A stretch of 64,000 nt of DNA from Heloderma charlesbogerti. Taxonomy: Eukaryota; Chordata; Lepidosauria; Squamata; Helodermatidae. The notes under the pieces are model-generated. The model saw nothing but the letters and a program-made list of their open reading frames with translations. It was not told the origin of the DNA and searched no databases. The translations under genes were made by a program, and so were the position numbers. Where the stretch lies: contig JANEZZ010000522.1 in assembly GCA_026122225.1 (NCBI GenBank), forward strand, positions 1,240,001-1,304,000. Direction: 5' to 3'. Of the stretch, positions 21,293 through 24,364 are shown in pieces. Each line of letters begins with the position of its first letter. Position 1 is the stretch's first letter.

Positions 21293-22028
21293 AGACAGAC
21301 AGATGATATGCATTTTTGTGTGCATTTTTTGAGATGCATGCATTTTTTAAACACACACTTTAGGTGTGTGGAAATAGATGGGTTTTGGTAGCAAACTGCC
21401 TTCCAGTTCGTGTTTAGGTCTGGGGAAGTACACATTTTGTAAGTTCGCACTAGGGATGTACGAAAGTGACTTACCTTTCGCGGATTATATTGATGGTGAG
21501 GGGGAAGGCCTTCCGTCCCTCCCCCCGGAATCCTGGTGGGGGGGAGGTGCTCCGTTCCTCCCCCCGGAATCCTCTAATGGCCAGCTGTGCTCCGCAGCAG
21601 CTCTGCGGAGCAGCTGGCCAGGCCCAGCCCAGCCAGGCCAGAGCCGTCCGCAGCTGGATTTCCGGCCGCAGAGGGCTCTGGGTAAAACAAAAAACAAAAA
21701 AACAACTGCATACGCAAATGGCGGCGTCTACGGCCGCCGCCATTCGCGTTCCTTCTTTTTGCTGTCTTAATCTACATAAATATTTATGTAGACTATACTA
21801 GGGATGTATGAAAGTCACTTACCTGTAACGAAATTTGATTCGTGGGGGGGGGGAGGCGCTCCGTCCCTCCCCCCCGAAATTCTGGCTGGGGGGGAGGTGC
21901 TCTGTTCCCCCCCCCGAAATTCTGGCCAGGGGGGGAGGCGCTCCATCCCTCCACCCCCGAATCCTGGCCAGCCGGGCCGCAAATGGCAGCGGCCATAGCC
22001 GCCGCCGTTTGCGTCCCTGCAGTCAGCC

Positions 22029-22378
22029 GTGATAGGCTACGTAAATGTTTACGTAGCCTATCACGGCTGGGTAAAAACAAAAAACAAAAAACTGCGCATA
22101 CGCAAATGGCGGCGCCCATGGGCACTGCCATTTGCGTTCCTTATTTTGGCACGTCTAGTCTATGTAAAGATTTACGTAGACTACGGCGAAAATAAGGGGA
22201 ATGCAAATAGCGTAGACGCTATGCTATTCGCGTTCCCCTTATTTTCACCGTAGTCTACGTAAACGTTTACGTAGACTAGACATGCCAAAATAAGGAACGC
22301 AAATGGCGGCGCCCATGGGCACCGCCATTTGCGTACGCACGGTGGTTTGTTTTTTTTTTTACTCAGCCATGATAGGCT
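22029..22378. repeat. Hierarchical palindrome core of element C
   Basis: The order is: TAGGCTACGTAAA hairpin, CGCAAATGGCGG hairpin, AGTCTATGTAAA hairpin, central CAAATAGCGTAGACGCTATGC hairpin, then the same hairpins in reverse order. The axis is near 22213. Each subunit is itself a palindrome and the whole is also palindromic. The last hairpin is interrupted by element B. Confidence 0.92.
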
Positions 22379-23268
22379 TAGGGGTGCACGAAAGTCACTT
22401 ACCTGGTCTCGCAGCTTGCTTGGCGGTGTGGGGGAGGCTCTTCGCTGCTCCCCCCGAAGTTCAGGCCGGGGGGGGAGGCTTCCCTCCTCACCCGGCCGAA
22501 ATTCAGGCCGGGGGGGAGGCTTCCTGCCTCACCCAGCCGAAATTCAGGCCGGGGAGGAGGCGCCTCGCCTCGCCCAGCCGCGAAATAAAAAGTTAAAAAA
22601 AACAAAATGCCCCCGTGATAGGCTATGTGATGATTTACGTAGCCTATCACAGCTAGATCTGCAAAGTCAGCCATGATAGGCTACGTTAATCGTCACATAG
22701 CCTATCACGGGTGACTTTAAGAAAAAAAAAAGTGCGTACGCAAATGGCGGCCCCCATAGGGAGCCGCCATTCGCGCATTGCCCTTATTTTTGCCGTAGTC
22801 TACGTAAAGATTTACGTAGACTACAGCGACCAAATAAGGAACGTGAATGGCGGCTCCCTATGGGGGACACCATTAGCCGTACGCGCTTTTTTTTTTTTTT
22901 AAGTCACCCGTGATAGGCTACGTGATGATTTATGTAGCCTATCATGGCTGACTTTGCAAATCTAGCTGTGATAGGCTACGTTAATCGTCACGTAGCCTAT
23001 CAAGGGGTTTTTTGTTTGTTTGTTTTTACTTTTCTTGGAATGGCAGCGGCGGCAGCTGGTCGAAAGACCGGCTGCCGCCCCCGCCCCTGATGAAGACCTG
23101 CCGAACCACCGCCGGGACCCGCCGCCGGGAGGGACATTCGGGAAAGGTAAGTCCCATCCCGGGGGGGGCGGGGGGGCGGAGAATTTCTCCCCGGAACTAC
23201 TTTGGGGGGCTGAATACGTTGGCACTTGGCCCCCCGAAGTTTCGGGGAGAAATTCTCCCCCATCCCTA
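22379..23268 (+). mobile_element. HP-family element B, nested in C (890 bp)
   Basis: Perfect 8-bp TSD GATAGGCT (22371-22378 and 23269-23276). The left end TAGGGGTGCACGAAAGTC and right end TTCTCCCCCATCCCTA carry a few changes. The insertion falls in a TAGGCTACGTAAA hairpin of C. The left arm has three tandem GAAATTCAGGCCGGGGGGGAG units. The right domain has GGAAAGGTAAGTCCCATCCC. This is the innermost and therefore youngest of the three insertions. Confidence 0.93.
22606..23010. repeat. Hierarchical palindrome core of element B
   Basis: The axis is at 22809/22810 within GTAGTCTACGTAAAGATTTA. Arms of about 200 bp contain, from the outside in, two GATAGGCTACGT hairpins with a GACTTTGCAAATCTAG-type linker, then a CGTACGCAAATGGCGG hairpin, then an AGTCTACGTAAA hairpin on the axis. 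Confidence 0.92.
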
Positions 23269-23594
23269 GATAGGCTACGTAAACATTTATGTAGCCTAAC
23301 GCGGTATTTTTTTAAAAATCTAGCCATGATAGGCTACGTAAATCTTTATGTAGCCTATCACGTTTTGTTGTTGTTGTTGTTTTTTACTGGAAATGGTGGC
23401 GGCGGCAGCCAGTCGGAAGACCAGCCGCCGCCGCCACACTGCCTCCGCACCGCCGCCGCCAGGAGGATTCACCCAAGGTAAGTCCCATCCCGCGGGGGGT
23501 GGGGGGCAGACCGTTTCGTCACCAATTTCAGGTGGCTGAATGCGCTGGCATTTGGCCTTCCCCAGATTTGTGGAGAAATTCTCTGACATCCCTA

Positions 23595-23880
23595 ACTATG
23601 ATGGTGAAAATCAAAGGGAACGCAAATAGCGTAGCGGGCGCTATTTGCGTCCCTTTTTCATTCACCCTTTTAGCCTACGTAAATCTTTATGTAGGCTAAA
23701 ACGGCGAATCAAAAGGGGACGCAAATAGCGCCCGCTACGCTATTTGTGTTCCCCTTGATTTTCGCCGTCATAGTCTATGTAAATATTTATGTAGATTAAG
23801 ACGGCAAAAAGAAGGAACACAAATGGCGGCGGCCATAGCCGCTGCCATTTGCGTACGCGTTTTTTTTTTAAACCCACCCC
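23595..23880. repeat. Right half of hierarchical palindrome core of element A
   Basis: The axis is near 23688 (CCTACGTAAATCTTTATGTAGG). GCAAATAGCGTAGCGGGCGC hairpins lie on both sides, followed by an AGTCTATGTAAA hairpin and a CAAATGGCGGCGGCC hairpin. The mirror partner on the left is split off at 21707-21798 by the insertion of element C. Confidence 0.88.
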
Positions 23881-24364
23881 CAACCATAATATGCTACGTA
23901 AAGATTTACGTAGCCTATCACGTCTTTTTTTTCTTTTTTTTTAAACCTAGCCATGATAGGCTACGTAAATCTTTACGTAGCCTATCACGTCTCCCCCCCC
24001 CACAAGCCTGGAAATGGCGGCGGCGGCAGCAGCCGGTAGGAAGACCGCCTGCTGCCCCCGCCGGAGCCACCGCCACCCGGAAGATCCACCCCAGGTAAGT
24101 CTTGTCCTGGGGGGGATCCGCGGGGGGGCGGGGGGTGGCAGGCCGTTCCACCACAGATTTCGGGGGGCCGAATGCACTGGCATTCAGTCTCACCGAGATC
24201 CATGGCAGAATTCTCTGACATCCCTAGTTCGCACTGAAATGCAAACTGAACAAATTTCTCACCCATCCCTACTCTTCAAGTGGCGGGTTAGCTGGCATGA
24301 CAGAGTGCCCCTGGGAATGACAGCAAGTCATAACACAGGGTTGTTACCAGTGACATTCCTTTAC

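Follow-up and report, generated by a model that had tools for sequence, protein, structure and literature searches.

HP is a family of palindrome-rich repeats that we describe here in a stretch of 64,000 nucleotides of the Heloderma charlesbogerti genome (contig JANEZZ010000522.1, positions 1,240,001 to 1,304,000 of the forward strand; hereafter the window, with coordinates counted from its first letter). Our preferred reading, to which we assign a probability of roughly 87%, is that HP is a very abundant non-autonomous hAT family, that an autonomous hAT element of ~10.2 kb in this genome most likely mobilises it in trans, that its core is a zig-zag chain of monomers doubled by one fold-back and then spread by cut-and-paste, and that the transposase probably docks with its BED finger on AAGT sites. 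Hairpin-rich non-autonomous elements often come without a known driver or a readable history. Here, a driver with a half-array and derivatives with a mirrored array are visible in one genome. This makes testable how large palindromes in transposons arise and persist, whether they aid amplification, and by what route a cut-and-paste element could come to fill ~10% of a vertebrate genome.

Ends shared by HP and a 10.2-kb hAT element

The reference copy of HP (55379-56297, + strand, 919 bp) is flanked by the target-site duplication (TSD) GGCaCCGG/GGCtCCGG. We searched the genome (2.30 Gb, 3,246 contigs) with this copy and scored the best 40 of 15,779 first-look candidates, that is, the copy itself and 39 others. 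The 37 of these 39 that were examined are the best-scoring ones rather than a random draw. Both ends are located in 34 of the 37. An 8-bp duplication with at most one mismatch is present in 28 of the 34 (perfect in 20), compared with 0 of 1,122 pairings of left and right flanks from different copies; the original prediction, made from the sequence of the window, had proposed testing further copies for such duplications. A consensus of 19 copies is 879 bp long, and the copies diverge from it by 4.7-9.0%. Both ends carry TAGGGATGT tips, with 0-2 changes in single copies. Short terminal inverted repeats with TAGGGATG- or CAGGG-type tips are typical of the hAT superfamily.

HP is abundant. Exact genomic matches to the 25-bp left tip, fragments included, number 21,440, compared with 0 for the reversed pattern. 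In 20 arbitrary 1.2-kb spots, HP-like DNA accounts for 2,543 of 24,000 bp and is present in 5 of the 20, mostly in three; the HP-like share of the genome is roughly 10% by this 24-kb sample.

We also searched this genome with the profile of the hAT dimerisation domain (PF05699) and scored the best 150 of 871 candidates; the 30 loci obtained are all of one family. One member, copy B, is 10,208 bp long and has the 8-bp flanks CTCGCCCG/CTCGCCTG. It starts with TAGGGATGTCAGAGAAATTC, the reverse complement of the HP right tip except for 1 base of 20, and it ends with the reverse complement of the HP left end and hairpin modules. In the reference copy, the left tip TAGGGATGTACGAAAGTCACTTACC (55379-55403, + strand) corresponds to the autonomous 3' tip in reverse complement, and the right tip GAAATTCTCTGACATCCCTA (56278-56297, + strand) to the autonomous 5' tip, likewise in reverse complement, again with 1 base of 20 differing. 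By sequence comparison, the HP left end with its first half-array is the counterpart of the autonomous 3' end, and the HP right tip is that of the autonomous 5' tip. Copy B is itself inserted within an HP copy bearing its own perfect TSD, CTCAGCAG. When the insert and one duplication are removed, the host aligns through the joint to the HP copy at 22379 with 84% identity over 825 columns.

Six more young copies of the autonomous element were read at both ends. Five of the six (C2152, C235, C2955, C3039, and C3046) have a TSD with at most one mismatch, making six of seven copies with both tips when copy B is included. C235 has a changed tip, and we therefore placed its boundary by means of the duplication. 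All six have 5' ends with 97.6-98.3% identity to that of copy B, and the driver copies look recently active. The original prediction had suggested looking elsewhere in the genome for a hAT transposase with the same termini, and this element carries one. Since other copies have 8-bp duplications and the same termini enclose a hAT transposase gene elsewhere in the genome, the reading of HP as a non-autonomous hAT family stands. High copy number and ends in common with an autonomous element place HP among miniature inverted-repeat transposable elements (MITEs).

The transposase frame spans 879-883 amino acids (883 in an eighth copy, copy A). The copy A frame matches Dimer_Tnp_hAT (PF05699, E 6.8e-17) and the C-terminus of Hermes (E 2.5e-14), and several relatives carry PF02892. 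The ratio of non-synonymous to synonymous substitution rates (dN/dS) of copy A versus six other copies is 0.42-0.60. Among 7,988 candidates scored, the best public relatives are from the lizards and geckos Sceloporus, Phrynocephalus, Sphaerodactylus, Eublepharis, and Paroedura (37-41% identity), followed by frogs, with ZBED4- and ZBED6-like proteins among the nearest that bear a name. ZBED4/6-like genes belong to the Ac family according to the available part of a published account (PMC3606216). Given the shared ends, which are observed directly, this transposase most likely mobilises HP in trans.

Other parts of the autonomous element have features of their own. Upstream of the transposase lies a second open frame of 237 amino acids (L076:599-1309), for which copies A and B share 95.5% identity and have a dN/dS of 0.32; it has no Pfam match. 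The 5' part of autonomous copies contains tandem arrays of a ~120-bp G-rich unit, and copy A has an expanded 17-bp unit with AAGT where the 5' tip is expected.

Several observations weigh against the preferred reading. Among the HP copies with two ends, 6 of 34 have no matching flanks. Among the autonomous copies, C1330 has both tips and no matching flanks, and copy A has a 3' end but an unrecognisable 5' tip. The length of 879-883 amino acids is that of the open frame. The zf-BED match in the copy A frame scores 20.2 bits, just under the cut-off of 20.6, and dN/dS between copies A and B is 0.81. The assignment of AAGT sites to docking is based on analogy, and the divergent window copies at 44466 and 49497 lack the full AAGT-C-ACTT palindrome. 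Apart from the tip, no match to the HP right domain (consensus ~650-860) was found in the autonomous element. Identity between the consensus HP left end and the 3' end of the young autonomous copies is only ~75%; therefore, the young autonomous lineage can at most be related to the founder. Finally, three of three older autonomous copies, each read at the 3' end only, end in a different, hairpin-free sequence. Therefore, the autonomous line may have acquired the hairpin end rather than given it to HP.

The last two points would fit a reversed direction of exchange, to which we give only slightly less than an even chance. The hairpin ends would be older and derive from another, so far unseen, autonomous lineage, and recombination or gap repair involving an HP copy would have supplied the young 10-kb element with its 3' end, an order of events compatible with trans-mobilisation today. 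Old HP copies do exist, for example the one at 11189, which is 72-77% identical to the reference in its main pieces. However, each of the three older autonomous copies holds, 216-218 bp from the tip, one 20-mer that matches the core of the type-1 hairpin of HP with 2-3 mismatches, whereas for two of these tails, each shuffled 1,000 times, the best match has at least 4 mismatches. Therefore, the hairpin region may descend from the older autonomous lineage itself, and from its sequence the 20-mer near the older 3' tips may be the seed of the hairpin monomer.

Architecture and proposed origin of the hairpin core

The core of the reference copy (55570-55957, + strand) is mirror-symmetric about a centre at ~55763 and contains seven small palindromes; its self-alignment reaches 88.5% over 391 columns. 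The palindrome scan places an extra hairpin of type 1a (H1'') at 55983-56010 (+ strand). The palindromes noted in the original prediction are real: the window contains 31 ungapped palindromes scoring at least 11, compared with 0 in one mononucleotide-shuffled window. The 31 include one AT run and five palindromes that fall outside the HP loci or are unlike HP modules. Two types of small palindrome alternate, type 1 (TAGnCTACGTAAA..TTTACGTAGnCTA) and type 2 (CGCAAATGGCG..CGCCATTTGCG). The canonical mirrored array 2a-1a-2a-1b-2b-1b-2a-1a-1a is present in 27 of the 37 HP copies, the other ten being variants, some with neighbouring insertions.

Mirror tests give 43/50 at H1, 45/51 at H2, 42/48 at H3, 49/49 at H4, 43/48 at H3', 45/52 at H2', and 43/54 at H1', and the large mirror around H4 gives 189/191 in the consensus. 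All eight exceed every one of 300 shuffles. Each of the seven inner hairpin centres is a mirror point for its neighbours; therefore, a single ~50-bp monomer, repeated in alternately inverted orientation (zig-zag), makes up the core. Mirror partners in this chain are nearly identical (m2 and m7, 99%; m3 and m6, 98%; m4 and m5, 98%), whereas other monomers share 63-82%, suggesting that the monomers came first and that one mirror doubling came later. The arrays of the autonomous element, parsed within 580-800 bp next to the 3' tip, are unmirrored in eight of eight young copies and have four or five recognised modules.

These arrays suggest an order of events for HP. A half-array of ~50-bp monomers would form first. 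One fold-back (template-switch) event around the central hairpin would then duplicate the half-array in inverted orientation, giving a palindrome of palindromes, and the mirrored product would spread by ordinary cut-and-paste with 8-bp duplications. Fold-back synthesis at breaks is a known route to inverted duplications and likewise yields a templated inverted duplication; the yeast examples in the accessible text are mostly 5-34 bp, compared with the ~190 bp proposed here for a transposon-borne event (PMC11724301).

The hairpins could be kept by selection for a function, as structured RNA, as a source of small RNA, or as DNA sites aiding transposition, rather than being a by-product of repair. 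We consider this rather unlikely. Double Watson-Crick changes between module types number 410, compared with 131 expected under independence, in a sample of 377 module instances that are related and partly from overlapping loci, but such covariation is also expected from arm-to-arm copying or shared descent. The RNA fold reaches -657 kcal/mol, compared with -328 +- 9.8 kcal/mol in 40 shuffles; however, no Rfam family reaches the gathering threshold in the window. At CpG positions, double changes after insertion number 5 and 12, compared with 7.5 and 10.2 expected, and mismatches show no G-U bias (G-T versus A-C, 95 to 101). CpG decay proceeds without compensation, indicating that single copies are not maintained. 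With 0 Rfam matches at the gathering threshold in the window and symmetric decay, we reject an RNA function for single copies. Maintenance or renewal of the palindromes thus takes place in source lineages rather than in single copies.

A role of the hairpins in transposition is possible. Hermes requires ~220 bp of each end, for a reason that the text available to us leaves unidentified (PMC10368747), and in HP that span reaches the start of the array. In the 10.2-kb element, TTTACGNAG is confined to the 3' hairpins and the vicinity of the 5' end. It was picked out as a shared subterminal repeat with the data already in view and is a weak lead. On the other side, the core lacks AAGT sites, and the 9-mers shared between the autonomous ends are within the shuffle range (88 of 500 shuffles reach the observed number).

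A bolder version of the preferred reading, which we regard as improbable, is that the zig-zag chain grew by itself. A near-palindromic 20-mer in the 3' subterminal region of an ancestor of the hAT type would have been copied repeatedly by fold-back into monomers of alternating orientation, and longer chains would have been favoured as aiding transposition, through extra transposase or architecture sites or through hairpin-primed repair after excision, until the family made up about a tenth of the 2.3-Gb genome. If so, the end of a transposon would itself be a replicating sequence.

Candidate docking sites and relation to known elements

The reference copy has an AAGT-C-ACTT palindrome beside its left tip (55392-55400, + strand) and a GGTAAGT in its right domain (56188-56194, + strand); in the consensus, the first base of GGTAAGT lies 118 bp from the right end. 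The conserved motif is GGTAAGT/ACTTACC. In the 879-bp consensus, AAGT occurs at 14 and 765 only and ACTT at 19 only. The Hermes BED finger binds AAGT, which lies in a quasi-palindrome near the left tip of that element, and Tol2 carries AAGTACTT near its left tip (PMC10368747, in the portion available). By analogy, we infer that AAGT-C-ACTT, a candidate BED-finger site, and GGTAAGT are candidate transposase-binding subterminal sites. The transposase would dock by its BED finger on the palindrome beside the left tip and on the lone AAGT of GGTAAGT near the right end.

Two other assignments were considered. The hairpin modules are not arrays of AAGT sites, since the consensus core holds no AAGT or ACTT. 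The 8-mer AGGTAAGT fits the splice-donor consensus, and the preceding ATG-GCGGCGG stretch might then be a captured first exon. We regard this as less likely, given that the ATG stretch is similar to the core of the type-2 hairpin and that the other end has the motif too, on the opposite strand. The AAGT-site reading is preferred because AAGT fits both ends.

HP and its driver resemble the Ac-like branch of hAT elements (Ac/Ds, Hermes, and Tol2) in several ways. They share 8-bp duplications and TAGGGATG-type tips, the type found in Ac. They share a C-terminal hAT dimerisation domain, the BED finger being borderline here, and ZBED4- and ZBED6-like proteins are among the nearest named relatives of the transposase. 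We compared the duplications with the Ac-like consensus nTnnnnAn. T is at position 2 in 18 of 40 (p 0.015) and A at position 7 in 17 of 40 (p 0.025), both uncorrected; the Buster-type positions have T4 in 16 of 40 and A5 in 10 of 40. Unlike Ac/Ds, Hermes, and Tol2, the elements here have a zig-zag hairpin array in one end, and the best public protein among the candidates scored is 41% identical to the transposase. Zebrafish Angel is a palindromic MITE whose whole element can fold into a hairpin, with one palindrome; HP, in contrast, is a chain of nested palindromes.

The autonomous element, at ~10 kb, is larger than the <4 kb given for hAT elements in the description of the Mar MITE. Like HP, Mar is non-coding, with a length of 610 bp, 11-bp terminal repeats, and 8-bp duplications. 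Unlike HP, it is Buster-type with nnnTAnnn duplications, and 74 Mar sequences retain terminal repeats, compared with the 21,440 exact HP tips. The word hairpin occurs 0 times in the part of that description at hand (PMC3517528). No description of HP is present among the literature matches listed. HP appears to be a variation within a known kind, the hAT non-autonomous elements.

The original prediction had also called HP foldback-type. This holds for the internal core but not for the whole element, because the terminal inverted repeats are short: the mirror core occupies consensus ~185-572 and the terminal repeat is ~9 bp (TAGGGATGT), whereas in a classical foldback element long inverted repeats extend to the termini. 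Galileo and other foldback elements do share large inverted repeats with HP. However, Galileo is described, in the excerpt available, as a P-superfamily element with long terminal repeats (PMC4168063), whereas the long inverted repeats of HP are internal and the transposase is hAT, making it very improbable that HP belongs with Galileo, the P-type elements, or the classical foldback elements. High copy number and internal repetition would also fit a satellite or a segmental duplication, but dispersed copies with private 8-bp duplications, precise nested insertions, and a matching transposase element leave this explanation virtually no room.

HP copies in the window

The window contains 40 ends matching TAGGGATGT with at most one mismatch, compared with 16.8 expected, and 0 of 100 shuffles reach 40. 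When ends TAGGGATGT/ACATCCCTA are paired at a spacing of 80-3500 bp, 32 pairs result. Seven of these have 8-bp flanks with at most two mismatches and six with at most one, compared with 0.012 expected at the latter threshold. The six are 11189-11792, 12961-13345, 21451-24226, 34908-35639, 44466-45083, and 55379-56297; of these, 12961-13345 has the tips but no HP modules. The motifs and copies reported in the original prediction are found in the sequence, and a recount gives the same number of loci, nine hairpin- or end-bearing ones holding eleven copies with the nested ones. The complete copies range from 0.60 to 0.98 kb, a wider span than its 0.9-0.98 kb. Six of its seven 8-bp flanks are reproduced. 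The seventh, ACAACAcT, is not: ACAACATT follows the end at 62699, and no 8-mer within 61001-62690 is within one mismatch of it. By eye, no transposase-like long frame is present among the window frames; no family search of HP frames was made.

Three HP copies form a nest on the + strand. The outer copy (21451-24226; ~980 bp without the insert) has the perfect TSD GTTCGCAC and aligns to the consensus across the joined site with 72% identity. The middle copy (21799-23594; 898 bp without the insert) has both tips and aligns across its joined site with 87% identity; by eye, its duplication is degraded (ACTATAC / ACTATGAT). The inner copy (22379-23268; 890 bp) has GATAGGCT flanks on both sides, read directly, and is the closest to the young autonomous 3' end among the copies compared, with 86% identity over its left 462 bp. 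When 150 bp on each side of 37 copies were compared with HP, 9 of the 74 pieces matched, a share close to the sampled genome share of 10.6%, and a self-targeting preference is therefore not indicated.

Two shorter copies have perfect TSDs and recognisable modules. The copy at 11189-11792 (- strand, 604 bp) has the array 2a-1a-1a and the TSD AACCTTTC, and the copy at 44466-45083 (+ strand, 618 bp) has the symmetric array 2a-1a-2a-1a-2a and the TSD CTAGCAAC. A single end remains at 38345, 45485, 46949, 49497, and 62699. These belong to a left-end fragment with alternating modules 2a-1a-2a-1a-2a (38345-38780, + strand), a right-end fragment (45485-45577, - strand), a copy with a symmetric array and no right end (46173-46949, - strand), a left-end fragment (49140-49497, - strand), and an HP-related fragment with a left-type end and no TSD partner found (62506-62699, - strand).

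Beyond the nine loci, a related hAT copy of 732 bp (34908-35639, - strand) has the perfect TSD GTTGAAGC and lacks the hairpin core; by eye, it is similar to the autonomous 5' region.

Other repeats lie nearby. The element at 12961-13345 is 385 bp long, has tips resembling TAGGGATGT, and is flanked by the perfect 8-bp duplication CCCAAGAG; it has no HP modules and probably belongs to another hAT family. A 599-bp pair of TAGGGATGG-type ends, whose 8-bp flanks differ at 2 positions, is possibly an old related insertion (12324-12922). Long palindromes at 5075-5197, 7214-7313, and 10452-10596 are unlike HP modules and have flanks without a clear duplication; they are possibly other palindromic repeats. 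A 110-bp palindrome at 62394-62503 adjoins the HP-related fragment and is unlike the usual modules in sequence. Long open frames at 37556-38347, 53632-55338, and 60506-61534 resemble, by eye, remnants of long interspersed nuclear element (LINE) reverse transcriptases, presumably CR1/L2-like and BovB/RTE-like.

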